A stretch of DNA of 64,000 bases, taken from contig NZ_JASNJE010000014.1 in assembly GCF_030164465.1 (NCBI RefSeq), forward strand, positions 1 through 64,000, read 5' to 3'. The notes under the pieces were generated by a model. The model did no database searches. It was not told where the DNA came from and saw only the letters and a program-made list of their open reading frames with translations. Positions within the stretch are counted from its first letter, which is position 1. The number at the start of each line of letters is the position of its first letter. The DNA comes from Sedimentitalea xiamensis (GTDB lineage Bacteria > Pseudomonadota > Alphaproteobacteria > Rhodobacterales > Rhodobacteraceae). Made by a program: the position numbers and the translations under genes. Positions 3,723 through 20,956 of this stretch are shown here, piece after piece.

Positions 3723-3834
3723 ACCTGGCTCCCCAATAGTCACTATGGTTTTCCGTCATGTAGCCGCTCCATTCCTTGCCAGTAAGCTCATCTTTTGACA
3801 AATTTGTATCGGATTACGCCAAGTAAAGCCCCTC

Positions 3835-5251: not shown

Positions 5252-6325
5252 TCACCTTGGATGCGCGTCGGTGACCGGCAGGCGTTTTGCCCAGAACCCG
5301 AGCAGCAGGATCGTCAGTGTGATACGGTAGATGTGGTGCAGCGTAACAAAGGCGGGATTGGCGTGGAGACTGAGCGCGATCAGCCCCATCTCGGTGACGC
5401 CGCCAGGCGAAAACGTGATGAGCAGAACGCTCAGAGGCTGATTTGTGAGCGGCAGAATGAGCAAAGCCAGTATGGTGCCGATGGTCAGCATGCAGATGAC
5501 CGAAACTGCACCCAGTCGTATTCCTTGCAGCAAGAGTTGGCCGCTGAAGCCGCTGAACCGCGCGCCAAGCGAGACACCAATGACGATCTGACTTGCGTTG
5601 AGCAGCCAGGATGGGGTTGCGGGTGCCCCGACGCCGACAAGATTGAGGGTGGCTGCGACAAGCAACGGACCCGTGAGTTCTCCGGCGGGCAATCGCAGAA
5701 GCCGCGCCGCAAGGATCCCCCCGACAGTGGCCGCCAGCAAGAACACCATGCCCGAAGCGGTTGCCTCGTCGCTGGTAACAGCAGCGATGCCCCCGGCGCT
5801 GCCCACCGGATAGCCGACCCAAAGCGACATGGCGATGGGGACCAGCGCAACAACAAAGATGATCCGCAGGAACTGCTGCAATACAATATGTCTGGTGTCT
5901 GCGCCTGCGCCTTCACCCAAGGTGACGCTTTCAATCAGTCCGCCGGGGGCACCGGCGAAAATGGCGGTGGTACGGTCCATTTTGCCAAGACGGCGAAATA
6001 TCTGGTAGTTGATCATATGCGCGAGCAACACGAAGAAGCTCACTGCGATCAGGCTGTAGACCATTTCATCCAGATCTCCGATCAGCTCAGAGGTGACATC
6101 GCTGCCGATCGCAAATCCGATGATCGCGATAAAGGCGGTCCGAACCGGTTGAGGGAATCCATAGCCGTGCGGCAGTGCGTTGGGCATACCTATGGCGATG
6201 ATGCCCGCCACCAGCAGGCTGCCAAGCATGAAGGGCAGGGGCATCGGGGTGAGATGTGCAAGCCAGCCGACGACGGAGCCGATAATGAGCAAAAACAGGG
6301 TGGCGGCAAGGAACTTTGGGCTCAT
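5252..6325 (-). CDS. AbrB-family (duplicated AbrB/AmoA-like) membrane protein
   Basis: A very hydrophobic protein of about 357 residues with roughly ten predicted membrane helices in two similar halves. It matches the layout of the Gram-negative AbrB_dup family, often mislabelled ammonia monooxygenase. Repeated glycine-rich segments are visible, such as 'FAGAPGGLIESVTLGEGAGA' and 'SPGGVTEMGLIALSL', the two halves' equivalent motifs. The ATG at 6325 ('MSPKFLAATLFLLI') was chosen over an upstream in-frame ATG at 6448 because the extra residues are not membrane-like. These proteins are inner-membrane and of uncertain function, possibly transporters. The gene stands alone between an IS remnant and a LysR gene. 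Confidence 0.8.
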   Translation of the reverse strand: MSPKFLAATLFLLIIGSVVGWLAHLTPMPLPFMLGSLLVAGIIAIGMPNALPHGYGFPQPVRTAFIAIIGFAIGSDVTSELIGDLDEMVYSLIAVSFFVLLAHMINYQIFRRLGKMDRTTAIFAGAPGGLIESVTLGEGAGADTRHIVLQQFLRIIFVVALVPIAMSLWVGYPVGSAGGIAAVTSDEATASGMVFLLAATVGGILAARLLRLPAGELTGPLLVAATLNLVGVGAPATPSWLLNASQIVIGVSLGARFSGFSGQLLLQGIRLGAVSVICMLTIGTILALLILPLTNQPLSVLLITFSPGGVTEMGLIALSLHANPAFVTLHHIYRITLTILLLGFWAKRLPVTDAHPR

Positions 6326-6527
6326 AATTGGTCCTGAGGCGAAGACGGCGCACATGACCGTCACGGCGCTTGGGGCAATGGTGCACGGCGGGGCGAAGCA
6401 CAGCAAGACAGCGGATGCCTGCCCCTTTCGACGATTGCCGACCAACAATGCCGCGATATTCGACGGCGGCAGTCGGTCAGGGCCGGCGCGGTCAGTCTAG
6501 GGGTGGGGTGAAGATCGACGCAAATAC

Positions 6528-6599: not shown

Positions 6600-7526
6600 T
6601 CAAGCCGACAGGATGCCTTTCGCGGACACTGCGGACGCGATCTCGTTCATGTATCTTGGGGCCACCTTGTCCCGCAGAATACCGTGCAGGCGCACCATCG
6701 GCTCGGATTCGGGCAGGAGCCGCCGCCGGGCCCATACCCTGCTGATCGTCAGACCTTCGACTTGCGCCGCACTGATTACGCCGGAACTCAACTCACTGGA
6801 GAAGGCCGAGAACGGCAGGATCGAATTCAGCCCGCCACCAGCGCAAGCATTGATGCAGGCGAAATGCGATTCGACCTCCATCTGGGTAATCGTTCGCACG
6901 CCGTGGCGTTCGAATTCGGCCTCAAGATAGCGGCGCACCCAGTCCTGTTCCGTGGTGAGCACGAATGTACGGCCATCCAGCATGGATATCGGAATCCGCG
7001 ATGCGGCAAATTCGCCGGGAGCGCCGATCACAAACAGGGATTCCTCCCACAGCGGTGAAGTCGTCAGCATGCTTTCAGCCGATGGGTTCGTCAGCACCGC
7101 GCAATCGATGTCCCCGGCCCGGAGCCAGGCTTCCAACCGGTGGCTGGGCGCTTCGCTGAACTGCAAAAGAGCCGTGCGCCGAAGCGCCGCAAGCGAACTC
7201 TCGGTTCTTCCGAGCAGGAGCTTGCCGATTGCCGGCGGAAGCCCGACGCTCAGGCGATTGTCCTCATGTCCCCGGCCGGAGAACTCTTCTTCGATCAACG
7301 CAATACGTTGCATCACGCTTTCGGCCAGCACTTGCAGTCGTTTTCCGTCCTCCGTCAGTCTGGTGCCGCTGCCGGTCCGCTCAAAGGCCGTCAAGCGAAG
7401 TTCCTGCTCCAACTGCCTTATCTGTCGGCTGAGCGCAGGTTGCGCGATATGTAGGACGCGCGCCGCCTGGCTGATGCTGCCCTGAGACGCCACGGCCAGA
7501 AAGTATCTAAGCTGTCTCAGTTCCAT
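6600..7526 (-). CDS. LysR-family transcriptional regulator
   Basis: A 308-residue LysR-type regulator. The N-terminal winged HTH is clear ('MELRQLRYFLAVASQGSIS', then 'IAQPALSRQIRQLEQEL'), followed by a periplasmic-binding-protein-like effector domain. It is transcribed divergently from the transthyretin-like gene that heads the catabolic cluster at 7.7-16 kb, the classic position for the activator of that cluster. The shared intergenic region holds a dyad at 7541-7568 that could be its operator. The effector cannot be read from the sequence. Confidence 0.9.
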   Translation of the reverse strand: MELRQLRYFLAVASQGSISQAARVLHIAQPALSRQIRQLEQELRLTAFERTGSGTRLTEDGKRLQVLAESVMQRIALIEEEFSGRGHEDNRLSVGLPPAIGKLLLGRTESSLAALRRTALLQFSEAPSHRLEAWLRAGDIDCAVLTNPSAESMLTTSPLWEESLFVIGAPGEFAASRIPISMLDGRTFVLTTEQDWVRRYLEAEFERHGVRTITQMEVESHFACINACAGGGLNSILPFSAFSSELSSGVISAAQVEGLTISRVWARRRLLPESEPMVRLHGILRDKVAPRYMNEIASAVSAKGILSA

Positions 7527-7680: not shown

Positions 7681-8016
7681 ATGCGCTTCAGTATTCACAT
7701 ACTCGACGGGTCGAATGGCGGCCATGCCGGGGATGTTCCGGTCGACGTGCATAGCGTAGATGCGGACGGCAAGCGGGTGTTGCGCACGCAATGCGTTACT
7801 GATGCAGGTGGGCGCGCTGCCGCGCAAATACCTCGTACGGAAGGTATCGATGTCGTGATCGCAAGCGGCGCGCGGTTCCAGACCGCCGACGCGCCGGTGT
7901 CGGTGGAGGCCGTGACGCTGCGTATCGCGGTGCGTGATGGCGCCGAGGGCGTTCATCTGCCCACAGTGATCGCACCCAATTCCAGTTCGTTGTGCTGGCT
8001 GAAATCTGGCACGTAG
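7681..8016 (+). CDS. Transthyretin-like / 5-hydroxyisourate hydrolase-related protein
   Basis: A 111-residue protein with the transthyretin-fold pattern. It has an N-terminal 'IHILD' (the first catalytic histidine region in 5-hydroxyisourate hydrolase), a central 'TDAGGR', and near the C-terminus 'VHLPTVIAP', matching the family's 'YHVPLLLSP' region. The diagnostic C-terminal YRGS tetrapeptide is absent; the protein ends 'SSSLCWLKSGT'. It is therefore probably not a true hydroxyisourate hydrolase. The ATG at 7681 was chosen because AGGGGAG lies 8 bases upstream; a GTG at 7657 is in frame. It is the first gene of a cluster with a Tct transporter and a UxaA/SuyAB-like lyase, and might act on a pathway intermediate or lactone. 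That is speculation. Confidence 0.65.
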   Translation: MRFSIHILDGSNGGHAGDVPVDVHSVDADGKRVLRTQCVTDAGGRAAAQIPRTEGIDVVIASGARFQTADAPVSVEAVTLRIAVRDGAEGVHLPTVIAPNSSSLCWLKSGT

Positions 8017-8036
8017 GAAATCTCGAGGAGGATACC

Positions 8037-8993
8037 ATGATTTTCAAGTTTCTAAAGGCGACCGGGATTGCCGCGGCCATCGCAGTGACGGCTCCGGCCC
8101 AGGCAGAGATGGGCTGGACGCCCCCCGGACCGGTCAACCTGCTCATCCCGTTCGGAGCCGGCGGAAGCGCCGATTCCATGGCCCGGTTCCTGGCAACTGG
8201 TCTGAACGAGCAATACGGCTGGGAAATCCTGCCCGAGAACATCCCGGGGCAAGGCGGTCGGCTGATGGCCAGCAGCCTTGCAAAGCTGCCCGCGGACGGG
8301 ACCGCCATCGCCTTGGCGCCTCTGGGGGAGTTGATCTATACGGAACTGGTGACCAGGGATCCTGGCTATTCCGTAGCAGACATGACGATGATAACGACGC
8401 TCGCGGGTACCCAGATGGGTTTGATCGCGCGGGCAGACCGGGGCTGGAACGATCTTGGAGACGTCATAGAGACGGCCAGGTCGGGTGAGAAGCTCTCGGT
8501 GGCCGTCCCGACGCAGAAACTCGCGGATGCCACATACCTGATCTCGCGGGAACATGATGTGGATCTCACGGTGGTAGTGACCCGCGGCGGGCAGGCGGCG
8601 ATGAGTGCCGTCATCGCCGGGGATGCCGACCTGGCCTGGGCAGGCGGGCTTCAAGGCGGGAATGTCCTGAATGGTCAACTGGTGAATCTCGTCTCCGGAG
8701 AAATGGACCGGTTGGAAGTATCGCCGGACGCGCCCCTGTTGTCCAAATATGCCATTCCGTACTTCTTCGGAACCGATTTTGTGATCCTGGCGCCGGAAGG
8801 TCTTCCCGACGATGCACGGGCAGCATTGGCCGAGGCTATCGGGGCGATCGCCTCGGACGAGGATGGAAACCTGCACAAGCTCTTGATCAAAAGCTTCGCC
8901 GGGGCACGCCTGATCACAGGCAAGGAGCTTGACGACCGGCGGGATGCGGCGATCGCCAACGACCTCGGCCTGCTGTCCGATGTTGATAGTTAG
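8037..8993 (+). CDS. TctC/Bug-family periplasmic solute-binding protein
   Basis: A 318-residue protein with a signal peptide (cleavage near 'APAQAEMGW') and the Bug/TctC signature 'NLLIPFGAGGSADSMAR'. It also has 'ENIPGQGG' and 'LAPEGLPDDARAALAEAIG' near the C-terminus. It delivers a carboxylate-type ligand to the TctA-TctB membrane pair encoded at 11.8-14.0 kb. The start follows a strong CGAGGAGG 5 bases upstream. Homologous three-part transporters import sulfolactate in characterised sulfonate degraders, but Bug proteins bind many carboxylates, so the ligand is open. The gene is separated from tctBA by the lyase and dehydrogenase genes. Confidence 0.88.
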   Translation: MIFKFLKATGIAAAIAVTAPAQAEMGWTPPGPVNLLIPFGAGGSADSMARFLATGLNEQYGWEILPENIPGQGGRLMASSLAKLPADGTAIALAPLGELIYTELVTRDPGYSVADMTMITTLAGTQMGLIARADRGWNDLGDVIETARSGEKLSVAVPTQKLADATYLISREHDVDLTVVVTRGGQAAMSAVIAGDADLAWAGGLQGGNVLNGQLVNLVSGEMDRLEVSPDAPLLSKYAIPYFFGTDFVILAPEGLPDDARAALAEAIGAIASDEDGNLHKLLIKSFAGARLITGKELDDRRDAAIANDLGLLSDVDS

Positions 8994-9174
8994 GGCACAC
9001 CTTGGAGGCAGAGCTGACGCGCGGTCCGGCATCGAAGTCCGCCGTGACCGCATAGAAGCCGAACTGCGCCTTGTATGTAGGTCAAGCGTCAGGGCCTGTC
9101 TGCCAAAGGCCCGACCGGGCAATGATGGGCGAGAATAAGACAGAAGTTGCCAGAATTACTGAAGGGCTTGGAAA

Positions 9175-9477
9175 ATGAGAAATCTGATCATCGTCGATGC
9201 CGGGGATAATGTCGCCACCACCGTGGTCGAGATTGCCGAAGGGACCGTTCTGGCACTCGACGAAACCACAACCTCCAGGCCTCTGACTGCCCGGCAGGCC
9301 ATTCCGTTCGGACATAAGATCGCACTGGTCGATCTCGATTTGGGGGATGAGGTCATCAAGTACGGCGCCGTCGTCGGCGTCGCGACAGCCAGGATCCTGG
9401 CCGGCGATCACGTGCACGTCCACAATATCGCAAGCAAGCGGATACGAGGTGACATAAAGCAAGGGGACATGGCATGA
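9175..9477 (+). CDS. UxaA/SuyA-family small subunit (SAF domain)
   Basis: A 100-residue SAF-domain protein with the family pattern 'IPFGHKIALVDLDLGDEVIK', 'YGAVVGVA' and 'GDHVHVHN'. In altronate and galactarate dehydratases this domain is fused to the catalytic domain. As a separate small subunit it occurs in (R)-sulfolactate sulfo-lyase (SuyA) and in split altronate-dehydratase-like enzymes. Its stop overlaps the start of the large-subunit gene by ATGA, so the two chains are translationally coupled and must form one enzyme. Confidence 0.8.
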   Translation: MRNLIIVDAGDNVATTVVEIAEGTVLALDETTTSRPLTARQAIPFGHKIALVDLDLGDEVIKYGAVVGVATARILAGDHVHVHNIASKRIRGDIKQGDMA

Positions 9478-10670
9478 GTTTCGAGCATTTCACGGGATAT
9501 GGCCGGTCAGATGGTCGCGTGGGCATCCGGAATCTTCCGCTGGTCATTGCGGTCATGGACAATTGCAACCCGTTGACAAGGCGTATCGCAGGGGCCGTGC
9601 AAGGAGCCGTGCCGATTGTTGCGGCATATGGGCGGGGCCAGAAGGGCGACGATCAACGCGTGCACGATATGACGCTTGTCAACTATGGGAGCCATCCCAA
9701 TTGCCAGGCGGCGCTGGTCGTCGGGCTTGAGCATGTGACAGCGGAACGTATCGCAGCGAAGATTGCCGAGACCGGCCGCCCGGTGGATTGGATCGACGTG
9801 CAAGGGCAGGGCGGGACGCTGAATGCCTTTGCCGAGGGAGTGCGGCGTCTGACCGCGCTGATCGATGCCAATCCGGTGCGGCTGGTGAAAAGCCCAATCT
9901 CCGACCTCGTAGTCGGTTTGGAATGCGGCGGATCGGACGCGCTGTCCGGAATCAGCGGCAATGCCGCAATGGGCGTGGTCGCTGACCGTCTGAGCGACGC
10001 GGGTGCCACTGTCATTCTTTCCGAAATCGAGGAGATCATCGGCGCCGAGCATGTTCTGGTAGATCGTGCGTCAAGCGACGAAGTCCGGGCCAAGCTCCTG
10101 GCCGCCGTCGAGCGTTGCGAACGGCATGCCGTGCACCTGGGGTTGAACATGGCGCCGCTTGGCGAAGACAACATCCTTGGCGGGCTGTCGACCACCGAGG
10201 AGAAATCGCTGGGCGCCGTACGCAAATCGGGCACCTCACCTTTGAATGAGGTAATCGGCTATGGTGAGAAACCCAGGGAGCGCGGAGTGGTATTCATGGA
10301 CGCGCCCGCACCGGGGACGGAAAACGTCACTGCCCTGGGTGCGGCAGGCGCGCATATGATCCTGTTCAATACCGGGCGCGGAAACCCGATCGGCAACCCG
10401 GTTTCGCCGACCTTGAAGATCACGGGTAGCCCCAATACCGCCATGCGGTTCGCCGACAACATAGATATCGACGTGTCTGCGATCGTTTCGGGTGAAATGA
10501 ATTTCGACCTTGCCGCCGATCTCATCATGGAAATGATGGACTGCACGGCCCGGGGTCGATTGACGGCAAGCGAACGGCTTGGGGATACCGAGCTTTCCAT
10601 CAGCCGGATCGACAACGGGTTCCTGAGAATTCTTCGGGAAACTTGCCCCTCGATTGCGAATGCCGGATAA
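9474..10670 (+). CDS. UxaA/SuyB-family lyase large subunit
   Basis: A 398-residue catalytic subunit of the altronate dehydratase/sulfolactate sulfo-lyase family. It shows 'GRSDGRVGIRN' at the N-terminus, 'LECGGSDALSG' (probably metal/cofactor region), 'GGLSTTEEKSLGA', 'FNTGRGNPIGNP' and a C-terminal 'SERLGDTELSI'. The CGGSD version resembles ordinary altronate-type dehydratases rather than the CGESD I recall for SuyB. The reaction could therefore be either dehydration of a 2,3-dihydroxy acid or desulfonation. The putative sulfate exporter in the same cluster favours desulfonation. Confidence 0.8.
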   Translation: MSFEHFTGYGRSDGRVGIRNLPLVIAVMDNCNPLTRRIAGAVQGAVPIVAAYGRGQKGDDQRVHDMTLVNYGSHPNCQAALVVGLEHVTAERIAAKIAETGRPVDWIDVQGQGGTLNAFAEGVRRLTALIDANPVRLVKSPISDLVVGLECGGSDALSGISGNAAMGVVADRLSDAGATVILSEIEEIIGAEHVLVDRASSDEVRAKLLAAVERCERHAVHLGLNMAPLGEDNILGGLSTTEEKSLGAVRKSGTSPLNEVIGYGEKPRERGVVFMDAPAPGTENVTALGAAGAHMILFNTGRGNPIGNPVSPTLKITGSPNTAMRFADNIDIDVSAIVSGEMNFDLAADLIMEMMDCTARGRLTASERLGDTELSISRIDNGFLRILRETCPSIANAG

Positions 10671-10694
10671 GCCGCCGCCTGGCTGGAGGAAGAC

Positions 10695-11783
10695 ATGAGC
10701 AAGACCGAGTCAACCGCTGAAGCCTTCCGGTATCGCGATACCGCGCCCGTGGAGCGGTTTGCCTGGGCGCCACTGGAGGCGTGGGTTGCCGCCATTCTGG
10801 GCCGGGCGGATGTGGCGTGCGGCGATGCGGAGCTTGCCGCAAAGTTCCTCGTGCGGTCGGACGCCCGGGGCTTTGGCACGCACGGTGTTTCGCGCCTTGT
10901 CAGCTACGTCGACAAGCTCAAATCCGGCGAGATCGCGCCGCGCGGCGCTCCTTCCTTCACCGAAGTTGCCGGCGCATTGCGGGTCGATGGGGCGGGGCTT
11001 CTGGGACAGGTGGTTGCGCCGCAAGCGGTGGATACGGGGCTCGAATTGCTGGAGGGTCGAGGCTCTGTTGTTTGTCAGATCCGCGACGTGGCGCATCTGG
11101 GCGCGGTCGGTATGTATGCGCTTCGCGCTGCCGAGGCGGGCGCGGTCTGCCTGATCATGCAGGCCACATCGCCCGTTATGGCCACGCAGGGCGCTACCCG
11201 GCCGATGATCGGCAACAATCCCTTGGCCCTGGCTGCGCCACGTCCGAACGGGCCGCCGATCGCGATAGACATGGCCTGCTGCATGGCTGCACGTGGAAAC
11301 ATCCTGCTCGCCGCGCGCGAAGGCGATCCGATTCCGCAAGGCTGGGCCATCGACCCGGAAGGACAACCGACGACCGACGCCGATGCCGCGCTGCGCGGAT
11401 CCCTTTTGCCCTTCGGCGGGCACAAGGGCATGGCATTGGCCATGATCGTCGAGATACTGGCAGCCAGCCTCGCCGGTGCGACGCATTCCGAACGGCTGAA
11501 TCCCGAAGGCGGCGTACAAAGCGCCTCGGGAAATCTCAACGCCTTCTGCCTTCTGCTGTCGCCGGACCACATGACACCCGGAGGGCGGGCCGCATACGAC
11601 AACCACATCACCGACTGGACCCGAACCTACAAGGCCGCGGGCGAAACCGCCGGCGAGCGGCTCCCGGGCGAGCGTGCGGCGCAAGCCGAAGCGCTGGCGC
11701 GGCGGGAGGGAGTCCCGTTGGCGAGATCCGTCGTGACCGAACTCGTGGCGCTGGGGCGCGAAATGGAGATAGCCATGCCATGA
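10695..11783 (+). CDS. Ldh_2-family NAD(P)-dependent dehydrogenase (malate / sulfolactate / ureidoglycolate type)
   Basis: A 362-residue oxidoreductase of the malate/L-lactate dehydrogenase (YbiC/ComC/AllD) family. It has 'DARGFGTHGVSRL' near residues 55-67, 'DVAHLGAVGMYALRAAEAGA', 'IGNNPLALAAPRP' and 'LPFGGHKGMALAMIVEIL'. Members reduce 2-oxoacids to 2-hydroxyacids or the reverse, including sulfopyruvate/sulfolactate (ComC). A 25-base gap follows the lyase gene, and GGAGGAAG provides the ribosome-binding site. In this cluster it probably interconverts the oxo and hydroxy forms, or the two enantiomers, of the imported acid. The substrate is not readable from the sequence. Confidence 0.85.
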   Translation: MSKTESTAEAFRYRDTAPVERFAWAPLEAWVAAILGRADVACGDAELAAKFLVRSDARGFGTHGVSRLVSYVDKLKSGEIAPRGAPSFTEVAGALRVDGAGLLGQVVAPQAVDTGLELLEGRGSVVCQIRDVAHLGAVGMYALRAAEAGAVCLIMQATSPVMATQGATRPMIGNNPLALAAPRPNGPPIAIDMACCMAARGNILLAAREGDPIPQGWAIDPEGQPTTDADAALRGSLLPFGGHKGMALAMIVEILAASLAGATHSERLNPEGGVQSASGNLNAFCLLLSPDHMTPGGRAAYDNHITDWTRTYKAAGETAGERLPGERAAQAEALARREGVPLARSVVTELVALGREMEIAMP

Positions 11784-11825
11784 CGGTCGTTTTTCGCGTC
11801 GCTGATCACCGATAGGGGAGGGGCC

Positions 11826-12401
11826 ATGCTCAGCCGCAGAAACGAGGTCTGGATTGCGCTCCTGTGCATTGTGGCGGCGCTCGTCACCGCAATGGTCTGG
11901 GTTCCGCTGGATAGTGAAACGCCACCCATATACACGTTTCGCCGGCAAATCAATATCGGCGACGCGATGCTGCCGTTGGTGTCTGCAACCGGCATCGCGA
12001 TATGCGCCGTCATTCATCTGCTGCTGACCTTGCGCAGAGAACCGGCGACCGAACGGTCTGCGCCGCTGGATATCCACACCGGTTCTTTCTTTCTTCCATT
12101 TGCCGCGATCATGCTGGTCTCCTGCATGCTCATGTATTGGGCAGGACCGATTGCGCTCGCGCTGTTCGGGCCGACCGGAGAGGAGGCGGTGACCTATCGC
12201 CAGATGCGTGCGGCATTCCCCTGGAAGTATATCGGCTACGGCCTCGGCGGCTTCACGATGGTCTTCGGCGTCACGTCGCTGATTGAAGGCAGGATCTCGG
12301 CAAGCCGGGCGCTCACGTCGATGCTTGCCGTGCTTGCTCTCATCCTCGTTTTCGATGTGCCTTTCGACACCATTCTCCTTCCGCCGAATGGGGATTACTG
12401 A
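11826..12401 (+). CDS. TctB-family small membrane subunit of a tripartite tricarboxylate-type transporter
   Basis: A 191-residue protein with four hydrophobic helices: about residues 8-27, 50-65, 95-125 and 140-160, with a further one at the C-terminus. It lies directly before, and overlaps by TGATG, a clear TctA gene, which identifies it as TctB. It spans the inner membrane and pairs with TctA. GGGGAGGGG before the ATG is a strong ribosome-binding site. Confidence 0.82.
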   Translation: MLSRRNEVWIALLCIVAALVTAMVWVPLDSETPPIYTFRRQINIGDAMLPLVSATGIAICAVIHLLLTLRREPATERSAPLDIHTGSFFLPFAAIMLVSCMLMYWAGPIALALFGPTGEEAVTYRQMRAAFPWKYIGYGLGGFTMVFGVTSLIEGRISASRALTSMLAVLALILVFDVPFDTILLPPNGDY

Positions 12402-13999
12402 TGGGTGTACTCGACTATGTCTGGGCCGGGATCATGGCCGTCATTGCCGGACCCGCCGCGTTCGAGCTGTTCGGAATCGGCATTCCGCTTGTCGGCCTGA
12501 TGGTTCTGGGAGGGTTCATCCTGGGTATCGTCGGTGGTGCGACACCCGGTCTGGCCGGGCCGTTCCTCATGGCGGTATCGCTGCCAATCCTGCTGTCGAC
12601 CTTTGGCTTTTCGCCGGATGCGTTGCTGCCGGTTCTGGGCTTTCTCATCGGGGTGATGAAAGGGGCGACGGTTGGTGGTTCGGTCCCCGCGATCCTGTTC
12701 AACACCCCCGGTACACCGGATGCGATGCTGACCACCTTTGACGGGTATCCGATGGCACAGAAGGGCCAGGCGGGAAAGGCCCTGCGGACAGCGCACTTCG
12801 CTTCCGTTTCCGGCGATACGTTCTCGGATCTGGTTCTGTTTACATGTGCTCCGTTCCTGGCGGTGATGGTCGAGGCATATCTGGGCTTTGGCGAGAAGGC
12901 GGCCCTGATCCTGCTGTCGCTGGCCTTTGTCGCGGCGGTGGTCGGGGCCTCGCCGATGAAGGGAATGATCGCTGCCTTTCTGGGGCTTTTCATTGCCACT
13001 ATCGGCACGGGCCAGGACAGCTATGCCCGCCTCTCTCTTGGTACCGACGTGCTGTCTTCCGGCGTTCCGATGATCACGGCGGTGCTGGGTGTGCTGATCT
13101 TGGGTGAGATCCTGTTCGCCTTCGAGGAAATGTGGCGCAGCCGTCGGGTGGACAAGGTGAGTCCAACCCCGATCCAACGCGACCAGAGGCTGAGCTGGGC
13201 AGACCGTAAGCGCCTGATGCCGTTTATCGGCGTGTCCGCGGCCATCGGAACGGTGATCGGTGCATTGCCCGGTATCGGTTCGACCTTGGCCGCGACGCTC
13301 GGCTATTCCACCGGCGAGAGAATGCACAAGGGGCCGGTCGCCTTCGGTGACGGCACGCCCGAGGGCATCGCCGCGACGGAGGCGGCCAACAGTTCGGTTT
13401 CCGGCGCGAACCTTATTCCGGTCCTGTCGCTGGGCATTCCGGGCAATGTCGGCGCGGTGTTCCTTATCCTCGCCGCGGAATCCATCGGTGGGTTCAACCC
13501 GGGTCCGGGCGTCTTTCGCTTCACGACCGAGGAAGTGAACCCCGAACTCGTCATCGCCTTCGGGCTGTTCACCGCCATGATGCTGGCCAACATCCTGAAC
13601 TGGATGATCGGCGGCAGGATCATGGCCGCGTGCGGCGTCATGGCCCGCGTGCCGAAGCAGGTGTTGCTGCCCATCGTACTGCTGCTGACCCTGACCGCAA
13701 TCTATGTGCAGGAAACGGATTTCACTGTCTTCTACTTTGCCTTCGCTTTCGGGGTCCTCGGTTACGGGATGCGGAAGCTCAAGTTTCCTGCACTTCCCTT
13801 TGTCATTGCCTTCATTCTGGCGGGCAACCTCGAAACGGCATTCAGGCAGGCTTTCGCAGTCTCCGGCGGCGATCCGTTCTTTCTGTTCAAGAGCCCCCTG
13901 TCGCTTGTTTTCCTCGCGATCTCGGTGGGTGTGATCGTCTTCTTCTCGCTCCCACGGAAACCGGTGAACAAAGCCATTGAGGCGGAAGAAGGCGCATGA
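12401..13999 (+). CDS. TctA-family large membrane subunit of a tripartite tricarboxylate-type transporter
   Basis: A 532-residue protein with about 11-12 membrane helices and the family's glycine/proline-rich loops 'GATPGLAGPFLMAVSLPI', 'VGGSVPAILFNTPGTPDA', 'GALPGIGSTLAATLGYSTGE', 'ANSSVSGANLIPVLSLGIPG'. These are diagnostic of TctA. It forms the ion-coupled importer with TctB (upstream) and the TctC protein at 8.0 kb. The stop overlaps the start of the following usp gene by ATGA, so usp is in the same operon. Confidence 0.93.
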   Translation: MGVLDYVWAGIMAVIAGPAAFELFGIGIPLVGLMVLGGFILGIVGGATPGLAGPFLMAVSLPILLSTFGFSPDALLPVLGFLIGVMKGATVGGSVPAILFNTPGTPDAMLTTFDGYPMAQKGQAGKALRTAHFASVSGDTFSDLVLFTCAPFLAVMVEAYLGFGEKAALILLSLAFVAAVVGASPMKGMIAAFLGLFIATIGTGQDSYARLSLGTDVLSSGVPMITAVLGVLILGEILFAFEEMWRSRRVDKVSPTPIQRDQRLSWADRKRLMPFIGVSAAIGTVIGALPGIGSTLAATLGYSTGERMHKGPVAFGDGTPEGIAATEAANSSVSGANLIPVLSLGIPGNVGAVFLILAAESIGGFNPGPGVFRFTTEEVNPELVIAFGLFTAMMLANILNWMIGGRIMAACGVMARVPKQVLLPIVLLLTLTAIYVQETDFTVFYFAFAFGVLGYGMRKLKFPALPFVIAFILAGNLETAFRQAFAVSGGDPFFLFKSPLSLVFLAISVGVIVFFSLPRKPVNKAIEAEEGA

Positions 14000-14820
14000 T
14001 TGCAGTAAGAAACCTGCTTGTGGCATTCAACGGCTCGGAAAGCTCGGAAGGCGCTCTGAAGGCGGCCGTGCATATGCAGCAGAAATACGGAGCGCACATT
14101 ACCGGTCTTCTTGCCCATGAAGGCAAGCGCGAACGTTTCTCGCAGCGTCCATGGATGCCGGAGAACGTGCGGGAGATCATCGAGAAATCGGTCCACGCCG
14201 ATGAAGATCGGGTCGGTGCCGATTTCCACCGCTTGGTCGGCGACGTGCCGCCGGACAAGGTCCATTGGATCACGTTATCGGGCGAACCCGATACCACGGT
14301 CGCGCAATATGCCTGCCTGTACGATATCACGGTCGTCGGGCGTCACACGGCCGACGACGTGCCGGATGCGAGCCTGCACCCCGAGCGGATTGCGCTGAAC
14401 AGCGGGCGCCCGGTTCTCGTTGTGCCACCCGGCTTCGATAAGGCGACGATAAACCGGCCGGCGGTTCTTGCCTGGGATGGTGCGCGTGCGGCGACACGTG
14501 CGCTGAACGACGCCATGTTGGTTATCGAGACCAAGCAGCGCGTCGATGTCCTGAGTGTCGGCAAGAAGATCCGGCGTCCGCTGAAGGCTATCGACGTGGT
14601 CACGACATTGGCGCGTCACGGCGTCGGAGCGAAACGGGTCCGTCGCGAGCAATCCACGCGCTCGGTCGGAGAGGAGATTCTCGCCTATTGTGACGAGGTC
14701 GATGCAGGCCTTCTGGTGATGGGCGCTTTCGAGCACAGCGCGTTCCGAGAGGAATTGTTCGGCGGCACGACCAAGACGGTCCTCGCCAACGCCCGCATTC
14801 CTGTCCTGATCTCGCATTGA
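13996..14820 (+). CDS. Universal stress protein (tandem Usp domains)
   Basis: A 274-residue protein with two Usp domains. The first starts 'VRNLLVAFNGSESSEGALK' and the second 'NRPAVLAWDGARAATRAL'. The second ends with the nucleotide-binding-type loop 'MGAFEHSAFREELFGGTTK' and 'ARIPVLISH'. It is translationally coupled to tctA and followed by the exporter gene. A Usp gene next to an exporter of this family recurs in sulfonate-degradation operons, so its presence here is a contextual marker. The molecular role is unknown. Confidence 0.87.
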   Translation: MIAVRNLLVAFNGSESSEGALKAAVHMQQKYGAHITGLLAHEGKRERFSQRPWMPENVREIIEKSVHADEDRVGADFHRLVGDVPPDKVHWITLSGEPDTTVAQYACLYDITVVGRHTADDVPDASLHPERIALNSGRPVLVVPPGFDKATINRPAVLAWDGARAATRALNDAMLVIETKQRVDVLSVGKKIRRPLKAIDVVTTLARHGVGAKRVRREQSTRSVGEEILAYCDEVDAGLLVMGAFEHSAFREELFGGTTKTVLANARIPVLISH

Positions 14821-14928
14821 GTCACCAATGCCACGACCACGTCCTCCCGCCGTTCGGGCCGGCATTGACGTGACCGCCTGTCGTCCCCTCCGACCCATCC
14901 CGTTAACGCGCCTTCAGGAGCAATTCGC

Positions 14929-15963
14929 ATGGTCAAGTTCCCTTTTGCCGCCAGCCCATCGCGCCTGCGCCTGACAGAAGCAATCCGTTCACGGCTGCCG
15001 GGTATACTGGTGGCGCTGGTCATCGGCATCGCGGCGCAGTTCCTGTCGGACCACTACGGTGCGCCAGCCATGCTTATGGCGCTCCTGCTGGGAATCGCTT
15101 TCCATTTCCTCGCCGAAGAAGGCCAATGTGCGGCGGGCATCGACTTTACCGCGCGGACAGTGCTGCGCATCGGGGTTGCGCTGCTCGGTGCGCGCATCAG
15201 CATCGATATGCTGATCGGCCTTGGTGCGCCCCTCATCATCCTGACGATTTGCGGGGTCGTCCTGACGATAGGTGTTGGATTGCTCGGCGCGCGGCTACTC
15301 GGGCGGGGCTGGCGTTTCGGCCTTCTGACCGGCGGCGCCGTGGCGATCTGCGGCGCGTCGGCGGCCATGGCTATTGCGGCGGTCTTGCCCAGGAACGAGC
15401 ATTCCGAGAAAAACCTCATCTTTACCGTGCTCACGGTCACAGTTCTCAGTACAGTCGCGATGGTGCTCTACCCGACGATTGCCCGGTTTTTCGGCCTCGA
15501 TGATCTGGCGACCGGGGTTTTTCTTGGCGGGACGATCCACGACGTGGCCCAGGTGGTCGGTGCCGGCTTTTCGGTCTCGGAGCAAACGGGCGAGACCGCG
15601 GCGCTGGTCAAGCTGTTCCGTGTCACCATGCTGGTTCCCGTCGTGCTAAGCTTCTCACTGGTCGTCCGCAGTCTCGACGCCAAGACGGAAGCTGGCGAGG
15701 CGTGTCCGCCGCTGGTTCCGGTTTTCGTCTGGGCGTTTCTGGCGCTCGGCGCGATCCACTCGTTCGGTCTGATACCTGCCAGAGTCTCAGACCTTCTGAG
15801 CGACCTCTCCCGCTGGGCGCTGCTCGTCGCGATCGCGGCGGTGGGAATGAAGACTGCGCTCCGAACCATTTTCGACGTCGGCGGCCAGGCCATCGCGCTG
15901 ATGGCTGCCGAGACACTCTTTCTTGCCGTCTTCATTCTCGTCGGCCTGCATTGGCTGGCATGA
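14929..15963 (+). CDS. YeiH/PSE-family putative sulfate exporter
   Basis: A 344-residue inner-membrane protein with roughly ten helices and the UPF0324/PSE signature. This includes 'FLGGTIHDVAQVVGAG', 'GGAVAICGASAAMAIAAVLP' and 'LFRVTMLVPVVLSFSLVVR'. Relatives (TauZ, SuyZ) are thought to export sulfate or sulfite released by C-S bond cleavage in taurine and sulfolactate degraders. An AGGAG lies before the ATG. Its position at the end of the transporter-lyase-dehydrogenase operon is the main reason to suspect that the cluster degrades a sulfonate. Transport activity is inferred from family assignment. Confidence 0.85.
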   Translation: MVKFPFAASPSRLRLTEAIRSRLPGILVALVIGIAAQFLSDHYGAPAMLMALLLGIAFHFLAEEGQCAAGIDFTARTVLRIGVALLGARISIDMLIGLGAPLIILTICGVVLTIGVGLLGARLLGRGWRFGLLTGGAVAICGASAAMAIAAVLPRNEHSEKNLIFTVLTVTVLSTVAMVLYPTIARFFGLDDLATGVFLGGTIHDVAQVVGAGFSVSEQTGETAALVKLFRVTMLVPVVLSFSLVVRSLDAKTEAGEACPPLVPVFVWAFLALGAIHSFGLIPARVSDLLSDLSRWALLVAIAAVGMKTALRTIFDVGGQAIALMAAETLFLAVFILVGLHWLA

Positions 15964-16235
15964 TGTAACGCGTCGCGCGGGAAGCCAGTTCCGCGCATAT
16001 CCATGCCGCGCGTGCCGTAATGCTGGAGCGTCTGGCCGCTGCCGATACCCGCTACCGGGTCGATATCGGCCGCAATCACACCGTAGATCGAAGCAGGAGC
16101 GCGCAATGCTGACGCTGTTGCTACGCGTGGTCGGAGGCGCGCTGTTCGCCTACATGGCCTACGCCACGTTTTTCGGTCCCTACAAGACCACGGTGGTACA
16201 CTTGGCGTTTTTGCCGGAGCATTGCGGGATTCCAG
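15964..16235. other. Decayed region with short unrecognised reading-frame fragments
   Basis: The plus strand reads '...ARAVMLERLAAADTRYRVD' to a TGA at 16107. It overlaps an ATG (16105) that opens a short hydrophobic frame ('MLTLLLRVVGGALFAYMAYA'), which loses coherence after about 35 codons. The ATGCTGA overlap looks like the junction of two formerly coupled genes. I do not recognise either fragment. The region lies between the exporter and a ParA-like fragment and is best read as a recombination scar. Confidence 0.4.
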
Positions 16236-16570
16236 ATGGCCCTGGATGTCGTCGCGGCTGCGGTGGCCGTCGGCGCCGAATGGTCGGACGGCATCGTTGT
16301 GCTTGCGGACCACATCGTGACACCCGTCATGCTGTCGACGTCTGATTTCGATGTCGGAGCGCAGACTTCCGATTTGTTTGAGAAGCTGAAATCCCGTGTT
16401 GACGACCCCTCCAGCCTTCCGCGCCACCACCTCGTCCTCAACATGGTCGACCCGAAAACGACCCGTGCTGACGCCGCCCTGATGGAAGAAGCCCTCACCC
16501 GGTTTCCGATGGCCGAAACCGTCATGATGCGGCGGAACACCTACAAGGAGATGGACCAGAAGGGGCTGGA
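16236..16570 (+). pseudogene. ParA/VirC1-like partition ATPase, C-terminal fragment
   Basis: About 110 codons read as the C-terminal half of a ParA-family P-loop ATPase: 'IVTPVMLSTSDFDVG' (compare 'TPLDI' in VirC1), 'HHLVLNMVDPKTTRAD' and the end region 'MMRRNTYKEMDQKGL'. The Walker A part is missing, though 'YKTTVVHLA' in another frame just upstream may be its remains. After about 16570 the frame becomes incoherent and meets an opposing gene fragment. This suggests a remnant of a plasmid or integrative element. The family call is tentative. Confidence 0.45.
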
Positions 16571-16575
16571 TTGGT

Positions 16576-16752
16576 ATCGATCTGAGAGATCGCCGCAGCA
16601 AGGAGGTCGGGTGTCCAGGGCCCTTGCGGAACACCGTCTTTGCCGATGGGGCGTCCCACGCCGGCCGCCGCTACCCGTGCGAAGAGTTCCTTGAAATCTT
16701 CACTGCCGCCATGTGGGGGGCTGAAAAATTTTCCTTTCTTTGTCAGTGTCAT
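16576..16752 (-). pseudogene. RcgA-family N-terminal fragment
   Basis: On the minus strand an ATG at 16752 starts a coherent stretch of about 58 residues ('MTLTKKGKFFSPPHGG...', 'VGRPIGKDGVPQGPWTPDLL', 'AISQIDTN'). This resembles the N-terminus of proteins annotated as RcgA-family in Rhodobacteraceae, as I recall them. The similarity ends at the junction with the ParA-like fragment, where the expected continuation is replaced by unrelated sequence. It is therefore a truncated gene. No function is claimed. Confidence 0.45.
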
Positions 16753-16951
16753 ACGGCGTCGTATTTCGAGTTGGCCCGTCCGATTTCGTCTTGGGCCGTG
16801 ATTTAACGACTCGGCACTTGGCATCAAGGCCAAAGATGCAACTGTGGCGAGTGCTCGCTCATATCCACCGATTGCTGCCCACGAGGGCTGCTGAGATATC
16901 GCCGGCGAATAGAGACTTGTCCTCCGTGTCGCATCGTCACCATTGGAGAGC

Positions 16952-17137
16952 ATGAATGACCCGAACGAAAAACTGTGTGCAGAAGCAATTGGAAAGATCA
17001 TCGACCGGCGCGGCCGCGATCACGTCGGCTACCTTTGTGAATGGAACAACGGGGAGCTCCAGCAGGCTTGGTTTGATCAACCTCGCACAGATGTAGTCGT
17101 CGAGATGTTCGAAGTGGACATCTCAAAGGCGAGTTGA
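16952..17137 (+). CDS. Small hypothetical protein
   Basis: A 61-residue hydrophilic protein starting 'MNDPNEKLCAEAIGKIID' with a GGAGAG ribosome-binding site just upstream. No family was recognised. It has no signal peptide or membrane helix. It lies alone between the gene-fragment scar and the Fic gene, in a region that looks horizontally acquired. Its pattern of charged and aromatic residues ('VGYLCEWNNGELQQAWFDQP') suggests a folded small protein rather than noise. Confidence 0.5.
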   Translation: MNDPNEKLCAEAIGKIIDRRGRDHVGYLCEWNNGELQQAWFDQPRTDVVVEMFEVDISKAS

Positions 17138-17302
17138 TCGGCGCGGGCTGCCGAGCAGCGACTTGAATTTGGCCTTGTACGACGAGCAAGTTGGATCTTC
17201 GCATAGCAAGACCGAAGGGTGGCCAGCCCATAGTCAGTACAGCTCGCCAAGCAGTTCCCTGAGCGATAGAGTTGACCTCTATACCTCATTGATGATCTAA
17301 GC

Positions 17303-17333
17303 ATGAGTTATAGAAAGGCTTTCTATAACTCAT
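17303..17333. promoter_or_regulatory. 31-bp perfect palindrome over the fic start codon
   Basis: Two perfectly complementary 15-base arms (ATGAGTTATAGAAAG and its complement) flank a single G at 17318. The right arm runs into the ATG of the Fic gene (17332-17334), so a protein bound here would block initiation. A TTGACC (17272-17277) upstream may be part of the promoter. The C-terminal winged helix of the Fic protein makes autoregulation an attractive idea. Confidence 0.75.
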
Positions 17334-18441
17334 GGCTTGGAACTGGACGCTGCCCGATTGGCCGGATTTCCGGTATGACGCCTCCGCTCTGGAGCCGTTC
17401 GAGCAGAAGTTTTTGCTGTCATCCGGGGAAATCCTCGGCGCGGTCCATCATGTCAGCCCGCCGGAACGCGAGCAACTCCGCATCGAGTTGCTCAGTGAGG
17501 AAGCGATGCAGACGAGCGCCATCGAGGGTGAAATCCTTGACCGGCTCAGTGTCCAGTCGTCATTGCGCCGCCATCTTGGGCTCGACCCCGGCAGCACCCC
17601 GGTAAAACCGCGCGAGCAGGGCGTGGCGGAAATGATGGTCGATGTCTATTCCGGCTTTGCGGACCCGCTGACCCAAGTGACACTGTTTCGCTGGCATCGG
17701 ATGCTCCTGTCCCATGATCGCCGGTTGCAAACCGTCGGAGCCTACCGCCAGCACACAGACGCAATGCAAATCGTTTCCGGCCGCCTCGACCGGCCCACGA
17801 TCCATTTCGAAGCGCCGCCTTCGGAGCGGGTCATGCCCGAGATGGAGCGATACGCTGTGTGGTTCAACAGGACCGGACCGGGGGGCGTGGAATCGCGTCC
17901 GGCCCTGACACGCGCGGGACTCGGCCACCTCTATTTCGAGAGCATCCACCCGTTCGAAGACGGCAACGGCCGCTTGGGTCGCGCCCTCGCCGAAAAGTCG
18001 CTGGCGCAGAACATTGGCCAGCCGACCCTCATCTCGCTCGCCTTCACCATCGAGAAGGAGCGCAAGGCATACTACGACCAGCTCGAGCAGCATCAAAAAA
18101 CGCTCGACGTGACCGATTGGCTCGTCTGGTTCGCGGAAGTTGTCTTGAAGGCCCAACAGGCAACACTCGACCGCGTCGGCTTCTTCATCAGCAAGGCACA
18201 CTTCTACGATCGTCACAGAGACCACTTGAACGAACGCCAGGCCAAGGCCATCGCTCGAATGTTTCGGGAAGGCCCTGGCGGTTTCAAAGGCGGCCTCAGC
18301 GCCGACAACTATCTCAAGATCACCGGGACCTCACGGGCAACCGCGACCCGCGATCTGCAGGACTTGGTCGAGAAGGGTGCGCTCAGCCGAACCGGTGAAC
18401 GACGTCACACGCGGTATTGGTTGAATCCGGGTGAAGAATGA
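17332..18441 (+). CDS. Fic-family AMP-transferase-like protein with N-terminal DUF4172-type region and C-terminal winged helix
   Basis: A 369-residue Fic protein. The catalytic motif 'HPFEDGNGRLGR' is complete (residues 206-217). The inhibitory motif T-S-A-I-E-G (61-66) lies N-terminal of the Fic core, a class II arrangement. The N-terminal 'WNWTLPDWPDFRYD' is the DUF4172-like start. The last ~70 residues ('LKITGTSRATATRDLQDLVE' to 'HTRYWLN') form a DNA-binding-type winged helix. Such proteins AMPylate or otherwise modify targets and are kept off by the inhibitory glutamate. No antitoxin gene is next to it, consistent with in-cis inhibition. The 31-bp palindrome over the start suggests autorepression. 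Confidence 0.92.
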   Translation: MAWNWTLPDWPDFRYDASALEPFEQKFLLSSGEILGAVHHVSPPEREQLRIELLSEEAMQTSAIEGEILDRLSVQSSLRRHLGLDPGSTPVKPREQGVAEMMVDVYSGFADPLTQVTLFRWHRMLLSHDRRLQTVGAYRQHTDAMQIVSGRLDRPTIHFEAPPSERVMPEMERYAVWFNRTGPGGVESRPALTRAGLGHLYFESIHPFEDGNGRLGRALAEKSLAQNIGQPTLISLAFTIEKERKAYYDQLEQHQKTLDVTDWLVWFAEVVLKAQQATLDRVGFFISKAHFYDRHRDHLNERQAKAIARMFREGPGGFKGGLSADNYLKITGTSRATATRDLQDLVEKGALSRTGERRHTRYWLNPGEE

Positions 18442-18502
18442 TTATTTTTCATTATATTACAGATATTTAAGAAATTATGCGTAATCCGTTTTATGTAAAA
18501 TC

Positions 18503-18530
18503 AAGGGGGGTGTATCCCCTCAGCATACGG
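18503..18530 (+). repeat. Left terminal inverted repeat of the IS1595-type element
   Basis: It begins AAGGGGGGTGTATCCCCT and ends CATACGG. It is complementary to the right end at 20928-20955, with mismatches only at the 7th and 19th-21st positions. The GGG-rich tip is typical of IS1595-family ends. Confidence 0.8.
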
Positions 18531-18587
18531 GGTTGCGCGAGACGCACAGAGGTTGCATGGTATCGAAATTCTAAACTTGGAGTTTCT

Positions 18588-19436
18588 ATGCCAGTATTTC
18601 AATTTCTGCGTTTGTCCCTAAGTGTTCCAACAATTGGAGACCTAGCCAAAGAAGATCATCGAAATGAGCCGGATGTATCGCGACGTGAATACCTGACCGA
18701 GGCGTTCTCGCATCGTTGGGACTTTTATTATTCTGGTAGGCAATACACATTTATGCCCTGCCCGGATGCGGTGCAGGGGCCGGACATTTTCTCTGGCTTT
18801 GTGGGGAAGCCAGTCGTCGAACTGGTAAATGCGGGACCGGAACAGCTTTTTGCTCTTACAAAATCAAAGCATTACAAAGCGGCCTTCCTTGCGATTGACG
18901 TTTCAGCAGACCAACAGGTGGTTGCCTTTGAAAAGCGACAGGATGTCGGATCTGCCCATCGCATCCTCCAGGCGATGTTGGAAGAAGTGGTGAGGAAGCG
19001 GAAAGGCTTCTCTTGGCACAGCGACGTTGAATACATCTCGTCCGAGCAGGACTTTTGGCGGGCCGCAGAAGAATTTCGTGGTCGGATTACCGAATTATCA
19101 TTCGAGTTTTATCCGCCAAATGGCCTAAAAGGCTTTGAAAAATTTAAGGAATTTGATAGAATTGCGAAACAGCAGGCCAACGGGCAAAGCAGTGAGTATT
19201 CCATCAAAAACCCAGATGGAGCAGTCGCACCCGAAGGTGGATTCGTCGAGAGCGCGGTCGAATATGCCGCAGAAGGTCCCGGCAAAATTACGCTAAAAGA
19301 AGGCCGTAAGACACTGTTTAGCAGCAGGCAAGCGAAGAAGACAAAGGATGTTCCGGAGACCATCATGCCTCGACAAGGTGAGCAATCGAAAATTCTTGGG
19401 GTGGTAGCCTGGCTGTTCGGCAAGAAGGATGGCTAA
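18588..19436 (+). CDS. Cargo gene: soluble protein with RexA-like layout
   Basis: A 282-residue protein without signal peptide or membrane helix. The ATG at 18588 ('MPVFQFLRLSLSVP') was chosen; an in-frame ATG at 18477 would start inside the left repeat. Recognisable blocks are 'HYKAAFLAIDVSADQQVVAF', 'ITELSFEFYPPN' and 'SIKNPDGAV'. The order of these blocks resembles lambda RexA (279 residues) and DUF4747-type proteins, but identity is low and this is my own comparison. The stop overlaps the next gene by 8 bases. The length, overlap and the membrane partner suggest an abortive-infection pair. Confidence 0.7.
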   Translation: MPVFQFLRLSLSVPTIGDLAKEDHRNEPDVSRREYLTEAFSHRWDFYYSGRQYTFMPCPDAVQGPDIFSGFVGKPVVELVNAGPEQLFALTKSKHYKAAFLAIDVSADQQVVAFEKRQDVGSAHRILQAMLEEVVRKRKGFSWHSDVEYISSEQDFWRAAEEFRGRITELSFEFYPPNGLKGFEKFKEFDRIAKQQANGQSSEYSIKNPDGAVAPEGGFVESAVEYAAEGPGKITLKEGRKTLFSSRQAKKTKDVPETIMPRQGEQSKILGVVAWLFGKKDG

Positions 19437-19947
19437 GGTCGTCGCCCTCATAGCGTTGGCGGCGGTGATTTCTGCTGTTGTTGTGTGCAGGCCGCACTGG
19501 CTTTCGGAGAACGCCTTCCTTCGCGACTTCGTAAACCACGAAGTTCTCGCTCTGATGGCGGTTGTCCTCACTGTGACGCTTGCTTCTGTCGCAAATATCC
19601 ACATAGCGTTAAATCGGATTGTCGCGCGCCGATTTGGCGGCAACGTAGATCTCAAGAGAGCGGCAGGCGAAGTAAAGCGCGAAATGAAAGACAACGCTTG
19701 GTATATATTCTGGGGGTTCGTCCTGACCATCGTTGTCCTTCTGGTAAAGGGGTTAAACACAAATGATCAACTAATCGTGGCGATTTCAAATGGCGCGGTT
19801 GTTTGGGTCCTGTTTCTGTTTATCCTTTGTATGCATGATATCTACAAAGTCATTTTCGGGATCGTTGATCTTGAAATGGAAGTAGGAGCAGATCAAAGTG
19901 ACGGAGAAGACTACACTTCAGAAAGCCCGGAAGTCGGGCAAGATTGA
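19429..19947 (+). CDS. Cargo gene: four-helix membrane protein with RexB-like layout
   Basis: A 172-residue protein with four predicted membrane helices: about residues 3-21, 38-60, 91-110 and 116-141. The middle loop is basic ('RIVARRFGGNVDLKRAAGEV') and the C-terminal tail is acidic. It overlaps the preceding gene by 8 bases and so is likely to be co-translated. RexB of lambda is also a four-helix inner-membrane protein paired with a soluble sensor of the same size class. No sequence-level family was recognised, so the role as a membrane effector is inference. Confidence 0.7.
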   Translation: MAKVVALIALAAVISAVVVCRPHWLSENAFLRDFVNHEVLALMAVVLTVTLASVANIHIALNRIVARRFGGNVDLKRAAGEVKREMKDNAWYIFWGFVLTIVVLLVKGLNTNDQLIVAISNGAVVWVLFLFILCMHDIYKVIFGIVDLEMEVGADQSDGEDYTSESPEVGQD

Positions 19948-20955: not shown

Positions 20956-20956
20956 T

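Follow-up and report, generated by a model that had tools for sequence, protein, structure and literature searches.

A nine-gene locus of Sedimentitalea xiamensis with a split UxaA-type lyase, a Tct transporter and a YeiH-family exporter: a candidate organosulfur operon

The operon and its closest described relatives

The closest described counterpart of the locus reported here is the sulfolactate pathway built from SuyAB, SlcC, ComC, SlcHFG and SuyZ, in which SlcHFG is a tripartite tricarboxylate transporter for sulfolactate (according to the accessible part of PMC5812351). We analysed positions 1–64,000 (hereafter the window) of contig NZ_JASNJE010000014.1 from the 4.75 Mb, 90-contig genome of Sedimentitalea xiamensis, where nine genes at positions 7681–15963 bring the same kinds of protein together in one cluster: a two-subunit SAF plus GD_AH lyase, an Ldh_2-family dehydrogenase, a Tct importer and a PF03601 exporter. 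Judged from their sequence relationships, the YeiH-type exporter and the Tct transporter independently tie this operon to organosulfur compounds. Our favoured reading, which we hold with about even confidence, is that the operon serves the breakdown of a small, sulfonate-bearing 2-hydroxy carboxylic acid, either sulfolactate or a compound closely related to it.

The locus nonetheless departs from the SuyAB pathway in several respects. Its lyase, dehydrogenase and transporter belong to other clades (TctA shares 30–34% identity with TctA of suyAB clusters), it lacks SlcC, and it carries extra genes for a transthyretin-like protein and a universal stress protein (Usp). Its tctB precedes tctA, whereas in slcHFG tctB follows tctA (PMC5812351, accessible part). 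A second set of relatives comprises sulfatase-linked TctCBA(-Usp) loci such as L061 of Sulfitobacter mediterraneus (comparison loci and genomes are labelled L and G), which shares the TctB-TctA-Usp order and a 51% identical Usp. In L061, however, a sulfatase follows, whereas in the window these genes are joined by a Uxa-type lyase, Ldh_2 and YeiH, with no related sulfatase. A third set consists of clusters that pair a split UxaA with Ldh_2 (L005, L008, and L044). Their lyases fall in the same wider group as that of the window and their dehydrogenases in the same clade, but they have other transporters and no match to YeiH or the transthyretin-like protein, both of which the window encodes. The features discussed below are as follows.

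5252–6448, minus strand: AbrB-type membrane protein, possible accessory (PF05145, 223 bits)
6600–7526, minus strand: divergent LysR-type regulator (Pfam HTH_1 and LysR_substrate; 71% identity to its Oceanibium counterpart)
7681–8016, plus strand: transthyretin/5-hydroxyisourate hydrolase-like protein, 111 amino acids (aa) (PF00576, 29.8 bits; cut-off 25.3)
8037–8993, plus strand: TctC substrate-binding protein (PF03401, 46 bits)
9175–9477, plus strand: SAF-domain small subunit of a split UxaA-type lyase (PF08666)
9474–10670, plus strand: large lyase subunit, GD_AH_second plus GD_AH_C (PF20629, 262 bits; PF04295, 88.6 bits); proposed C-S (or sulfate-ester) lyase
10695–11783, plus strand: Ldh_2-family 2-hydroxyacid dehydrogenase (PF02615, 300 bits)
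11826–12401, plus strand: TctB (PF07331, 18 bits; below the cut-off of 29.1)
12401–13999, plus strand: TctA permease of a sulfatase-linked subfamily (PF01970, 318 bits)
13996–14820, plus strand: tandem Usp (PF00582 in two stretches)
14929–15963, plus strand: YeiH/PSE-family exporter, putatively of sulfite or sulfate (PF03601, 219 bits; cut-off 24.5)

All nine operon genes begin with ATG as starts were chosen here, although a longer GTG-started frame is also possible for both the transthyretin-like gene and tctC. The SAF and UxaA genes overlap by 4 bp, tctB and tctA by 1 bp, and tctA and usp by 4 bp; the widest gaps are 181 bp (tctC to the SAF gene) and 108 bp (usp to yeiH). Every operon gene scores above its Pfam cut-off except tctB, which we recognized by its position and size. 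Open reading frame (ORF) calls and Pfam thus bear out the first-pass annotation, made from the letters of this stretch alone, which had described nine co-directional genes with several overlaps, a divergent LysR gene and a transthyretin-like member. Consensus scans for promoters and terminators returned counts close to those of shuffled sequence (3 versus 3.2 and 11 versus 9.2), so co-transcription of the nine genes is something that we infer.

The two-subunit lyase and its dehydrogenase partner

The SAF and GD_AH subunits are encoded by separate, adjacent genes, as in SuyAB, an enzyme that has been reconstituted with Fe(II) under oxygen-free conditions (PMC6278857). The SAF subunit is related to altronate hydrolase chain 3k3s (E 5.5e-16), and the large subunit belongs to the UxaA/GarD superfamily by its two above-cut-off Pfam domains, its SAF partner and its invariant residues. 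It scores 163 against TIGR03248 (cut-off 730.85). At least 95% of the other aligned rows agree at 36 columns, and the window protein conforms at every one, so the predicted enzyme is very likely active.

Sequence motifs and phylogeny both set this lyase apart from SuyAB. The large subunit carries CGGSD at residues 151–155, where SuyB-type proteins carry CGESD; among 41 aligned large subunits, 26 have CGESD and 15, including that of the window, have another sequence. At 19 discriminating columns, defined by one residue in at least 95% of the 26 CGESD rows and another in at least 70% of the other 15, the window consistently has the non-SuyB residue (19/19). This count is generous, since the window sits inside the contrast set and the SuyB rows, taken from the order of the host, lack distant SuyB (that of Cupriavidus pinatubonensis has the SuyB letter at 14 of the 19). 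A fairer count brings in the C. pinatubonensis SuyB and excludes the sequences of the window and of Oceanibium (12 SuyB rows against 19 others). It leaves 10 columns; the window is non-SuyB at nine and has the SuyB residue at one (column 358). A pattern of four cysteines that UxaA/GarD enzymes are reported to have and SuyAB to lack (accessible text of PMC6336799) proved unhelpful here, as only C151 is common to all 41 rows, SuyB included.

In a 33-row IQ-TREE phylogeny the 12 SuyB rows form one clade (support 100/100), among them the C. pinatubonensis large subunit encoded next to hpsN and hpsO (L085), and the three one-piece UxaA/GarD reference enzymes form another (100/99). The window lies outside both. 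Its large subunit joins that of Oceanibium sediminis (100/100), then one from a Rhodobacteraceae metagenome-assembled genome (MAG; L004; 97/87) and then one from a Ramlibacter MAG (L005; 100/99), making a third group that falls on the SuyB side at only 93/94 under midpoint rooting. This tree, which the first-pass annotation had proposed as a check against SuyB, UxaA and GarD, agrees with its suggestion that the lyase may not be SuyAB, as does the CGGSD motif to which it had drawn attention. We accordingly reject orthology to SuyAB on the motif, the discriminating columns and the separate clade; a one-piece sugar-acid dehydratase is rejected as a clade, though not as chemistry, given the split genes and the position outside the 100/99 clade.

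A single substitution distinguishes the window and Oceanibium enzymes. Beside the invariant E184, residue 185 is Ile in the pair but Thr in L004, in L005, in each of the 12 SuyB rows and in 15 of another 17 rows; this fits, as slight evidence, a change of substrate. Other candidate positions are not specific to the pair: position 164 departs also in L004 and L005, 225 in L005, and 272 in L004. Among the titles and abstract openings listed for open-licence PMC papers, we found none on a second sulfo-lyase of this superfamily or on a sulfatase-linked Tct transporter.

The dehydrogenase follows the same pattern. Ten Ldh_2 proteins of suyAB clusters form a clade (96/95) with the window protein outside it, so that ComC orthology was rejected; the window Ldh_2 groups instead with those of Oceanibium, L044, L005, L008 and L068 (100/99). 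Its best NCBIfam model is the L-sulfolactate dehydrogenase NF040650, at 186 against a cut-off of 500. The accessible part of PMC5695019 yielded no ComC active-site residues for comparison. Since lyase and Ldh_2 each fall in clades of their own, the enzymatic core is, by these trees, a module separate from SuyAB/ComC.

Beyond Oceanibium, relatives of the lyase (60, 55, 46 and 44% identity) lie beside TRAP or Tct genes, Ldh_2, an ApbA-family reductase or, by eye, an enolase-superfamily gene. One cluster (L044, 6884–16290, in G141) contains two split-UxaA large subunits, Ldh_2 and both TRAP-type (by eye) and Tct-type transporters. In G510 the split lyase stands between two sulfatases, again with two enolase-superfamily genes (by eye). 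A plasmid of Haloarcula litorea (L009, 6640–10177) carries a sulfate-exporter-family gene (a distant YeiH, 25% identity), a split UxaA and Ldh_2 side by side, and its lyase has CATSD in place of CGGSD. Perhaps a comparable gene combination arose independently in this archaeon.

Exporter, transporter and accessory proteins

The relatives of the exporter link it to sulfur. NCBIfam names its family putative sulfate export transporter, although the window protein scores below the TIGR00698 cut-off (124.5 versus 232.6), and deletion of yeiH is reported to make Salmonella sulfite-sensitive (accessible part of PMC12880088). A search for plasmid relatives returned 301 records, of which 60 were listed and nine regions opened. 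All six opened relatives at 61–72% identity lie between xsc and pta. Another, at 44%, adjoins a Ruegeria pomeroyi gene annotated as D-cysteine desulfhydrase, which we take to be the cysteate sulfo-lyase CuyA; a further relative, at 47%, lacks an obvious partner gene, and the last is Salmonella YeiH. Exporters in suyAB clusters are 48–63% identical to that of the window (58% in L100), while two suyAB loci (L053 and L055) have no YeiH in the stretch read. The host genome encodes a second PF03601 protein, 69% identical to the first, inside an Xsc-YeiH-Pta cluster. In a 21-row tree, with rows picked by similarity to the window protein, the window and Oceanibium exporters pair (98/97) among xsc- and suyAB-linked exporters, with the exact sister unresolved, and this assemblage stands apart from Salmonella YeiH and a haloarchaeal homolog (99/99).

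The Tct transporter points to sulfur through a different association. TctC, TctB and TctA are all present, the outer two above their Pfam cut-offs and TctB by synteny. Plasmid relatives of TctA numbered 810 records (20 listed, nine loci opened), and sulfatase-like genes occur in eight of the nine opened loci (L061–L064, L069–L071, and L073), with none in L072. Within the stretches shown, seven of these eight sulfatase loci also encode an alpha-hydroxy acid or FAD-linked oxidase and five encode a formylglycine-generating enzyme. The window TctC is 36–47% identical to TctC of four opened sulfatase loci. The S. mediterraneus plasmid locus has the order TctC-TctB-TctA-Usp-sulfatase, with TctA 84% and TctB 63% identical to those of the window. 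Usp lies directly 3′ of TctA in L061 and L062 (51–54% identity), and a 45% identical Usp is found in L132.

The sulfatase association extends to chromosomes. From 390 genomes of the order we read 24 further TctA copies at 56–66% identity with their flanks; 19 have a sulfatase within 7 kb and five do not. Sulfatases occur in one of 21 control loci and in one of the seven controls that hold a more distant TctA (Fisher 4e-7 and 0.004); 18 of the controls were fetched through the lyase, hence not at random, and three are other stretches of the host genome, and in these controls, which differ in length, a sulfatase was counted anywhere in the locus. On this evidence, the sulfatase-linked TctCBA subfamily looks like a common system for organosulfate uptake and hydrolysis in the order. 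The subfamily, represented by L126–L149 and the sulfatase plasmid loci, is marked by one sulfatase directly 3′ of TctA, often with a second, divergent one upstream. Homologs of the AbrB-type protein encoded upstream of the operon occur in six sulfatase-Tct loci: L062 and L063 (39–40%), L073 (by annotation), and L129, L135 and L137 (38–43%). The whole window contains no match to three reference sulfatases.

The transthyretin-like protein is related to 5-hydroxyisourate hydrolase (HIUase), as judged from sequence and a predicted structure. Its model (mean predicted local distance difference test score, pLDDT, 69.7, with a disordered tail) finds HIUases and transthyretins as its best Foldseek matches, and it retains H6, R45 and H92. 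It differs from HIUase in lacking the C-terminal YRGS and in scoring far below the TIGR02962 cut-off (32.5 versus 87.45). These three residues and YRGS are what we take to be the HIUase active-site elements. No signal peptide was apparent by eye. The host genome encodes a second, high-scoring PF00576 protein that keeps the YRGS tail, so the operon copy could hydrolyse a different compound, perhaps a cyclic ester or amide at a step before the lyase.

Conservation and candidate substrates

The arrangement recurs in Oceanibium sediminis (L003), where genes for LysR (71% identity), the transthyretin-like protein (62%), TctC (76%), SAF (60%), UxaA (83%), Ldh_2 (72%) and YeiH (75%) occur in this order. 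Here the yeiH frame begins 47 bp 3′ of the Ldh_2 gene; TctB (50%) and TctA (79%) are encoded ∼5 kb beyond yeiH rather than between Ldh_2 and yeiH, and the locus has no Usp match. This synteny shows the gene set to be a real unit, probably under selection. The interval between yeiH and tctBA (13476–17759) holds a tyrosine/homogentisate block, with HPPD and FAH identified by Pfam and the remaining genes, by eye, likely encoding maleylacetoacetate isomerase and MarR. Maleylacetoacetate isomerase genes and MarR also stand beside the Tct locus of S. mediterraneus (L061).

Outside Oceanibium the lyase is rare. When the genome collection was scanned by pattern, three relatives of the large subunit emerged, at 83% (Oceanibium), 60% (L004) and 55% (L005). 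Within the order, 36 of 390 genomes had a match at E ≤ 1e-60, counting the host itself, and the best other match is 46% identical (G141, whose second copy is 44%). Three of a 385-genome draw from the class matched at E ≤ 1e-75, again counting the host, and in a 398-genome draw from the phylum the host was the sole match. Three of five genomes of the genus (the host among them) matched the large subunit; G1109 (33%) has a canonical suyAB cluster, and the G1108 protein (37%) is not SuyB-like. For the transthyretin-like protein, the 390 genomes held no match at E ≤ 1e-10 outside the host. The operon is an accessory trait, possibly acquired.

Several neighbouring features deserve mention. Just 3′ of yeiH, positions 16107–16694 hold broken-looking frames, one weakly VirC1/ParA-like (19.4 bits, below cut-off), possibly the remnant of a partition gene and a hint of a former plasmid or island edge. 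Farther on, 17332–21071 includes a Fic/DOC-family protein (17332–18441), a 319-aa ORF that matches no Pfam family and lies where GC content is low (0.51 at 18–20 kb), and an IS1595-type transposase (20010–21071, minus strand). At 1128–3743, an enoyl-CoA hydratase gene adjoins one for a 594-aa acyl-CoA dehydrogenase, a pair that, we presume, recalls DmdD/DmdC of dimethylsulfoniopropionate breakdown.

We infer the substrate, the elimination of sulfur by the lyase, the direction of export and the roles of Usp and the transthyretin-like protein as follows. TctCBA would import a sulfonated 2-hydroxy acid, with LysR sensing the substrate and Usp serving as a transporter accessory. Ldh_2 would interconvert the 2-hydroxy and 2-oxo forms, making more than one isomer or the keto form usable, and the transthyretin-like protein would act as a hydrolase ahead of the lyase. 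The SAF/UxaA lyase, which we regard as the only C-S lyase candidate in the operon, would then take the alpha proton and expel the beta substituent, giving a 2-oxo acid (e.g., pyruvate) and sulfite, and YeiH would export the sulfite or sulfate derived from it. Hardly any gene is left without a role in this scheme, the simplest that we see. Sulfite is the product that we favour, since the close YeiH relatives that were opened belong to sulfite-releasing xsc and suyAB clusters; the sulfatases beside the kin of the transporter make sulfate from an ester a possible product as well.

A number of observations weigh against this scheme. The lyase and Ldh_2 group with pairs from the clusters L005, L008 and L044 (and the lyase alone with L004), and no YeiH match was found in these four loci or in L045, L057 and L058. 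PF03601 is absent genome-wide from three of four genomes with lyase relatives (G141, G510, and the L004 MAG); the fourth, the L005 MAG, has one such gene elsewhere in the genome, and both MAGs may be incomplete. At E ≤ 1e-5, none of the 24 chromosomal TctA loci matches the SAF protein, lyase, Ldh_2, YeiH or transthyretin-like protein, so that the transporter and the exporter are tied to sulfur through separate associations. The genome search found no ortholog of SlcC, the best match being 37% identical to SlcC from a suyAB cluster (the three SlcC compared share 60–77%), and nothing in the known sulfolactate route calls for a transthyretin-like gene. A search for convergence toward SuyB gave no clear signal (four columns in the window pair versus two in two neighbours), and the AlphaFold model of the large subunit, built from four sequences, has a mean pLDDT of 42.6, too low for the model to be of use. 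The first-pass annotation had proposed a variant sulfonate pathway. Its organosulfur link is upheld by the YeiH and Tct clades, as is a lyase other than SuyAB; a simple variant of sulfolactate degradation is not, given an Ldh_2 outside the ComC clade, the missing SlcC and lyase kin that lack YeiH.

Much of this would also suit an ordinary sugar- or hydroxy-acid dehydratase operon with a sulfur-free substrate, its transporter and exporter recruited for other anions or present by chance. The closest lyase relatives beyond Oceanibium (60–44%) do lie in clusters without YeiH, and a heteromeric L-fuconate dehydratase has been proposed in the superfamily from gene context (accessible text of PMC6336799), so the split form need not mean a sulfo-lyase. 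We consider this reading possible but doubtful, as two unrelated operon genes independently indicate sulfur, the adjacency of yeiH is kept in Oceanibium, and the Thr-to-Ile change at residue 185 fits, weakly, a shift of substrate. A merely diverged SuyAB/ComC operon, an ordinary member of the known system, would account for the shared gene kinds (split lyase, Ldh_2, Tct, and YeiH) and for the SuyB residue at column 358. However, the large subunit is 33–36% identical to the 12 SuyB rows, whereas 397 SuyB proteins are reported to exceed 70% identity to one reference (PMC6278857, accessible part); the non-SuyB residues at nine of 10 columns, the separate clades of lyase and dehydrogenase, the lack of a SlcC ortholog and the canonical cluster within the same genus (G1109) likewise make it highly improbable. 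It is refuted as orthology, while the same chemistry is possible.

The inorganic product might instead be sulfate, if an O-sulfated 2-hydroxy acid (e.g., glycerate 3-sulfate) were imported, the lyase eliminated sulfate in place of hydrolysis by a sulfatase, and YeiH exported it. The sulfatase linkage of the TctA subfamily (19/24 chromosomal loci), the oxidases in seven of eight sulfatase plasmid loci, the retention of transporter and Usp in a window that matches none of the three reference sulfatases, and the family name of the exporter all suit such a sulfate-ester lyase. Yet the opened YeiH relatives above 60% identity lie in sulfite-releasing xsc or suyAB clusters, YeiH finds no match in any of the 24 sulfatase-Tct loci, and we know of no UxaA/GarD superfamily enzyme that eliminates sulfate. 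On balance we think it unlikely that this route operates. Similarly improbable, but suggested by the subfamily of the attached transporter, is that the UxaA/GarD superfamily was recruited again, apart from SuyAB, to expel inorganic sulfur in what could be the first lyase to eliminate sulfate from an O-sulfated hydroxy acid.

If the substrate is a sulfonated 2-hydroxy acid, as we favour, the route would resemble that of SuyAB while drawing both its lyase and its dehydrogenase from other clades, and the UxaA/GarD superfamily would have been recruited to desulfonation for a second time. Genome and metagenome searches based on SuyB would then miss a second route of C3-organosulfonate turnover. The lyase and its exporter-free neighbours would also provide a pair for residue-by-residue study of the step from dehydratase to sulfur-releasing lyase.

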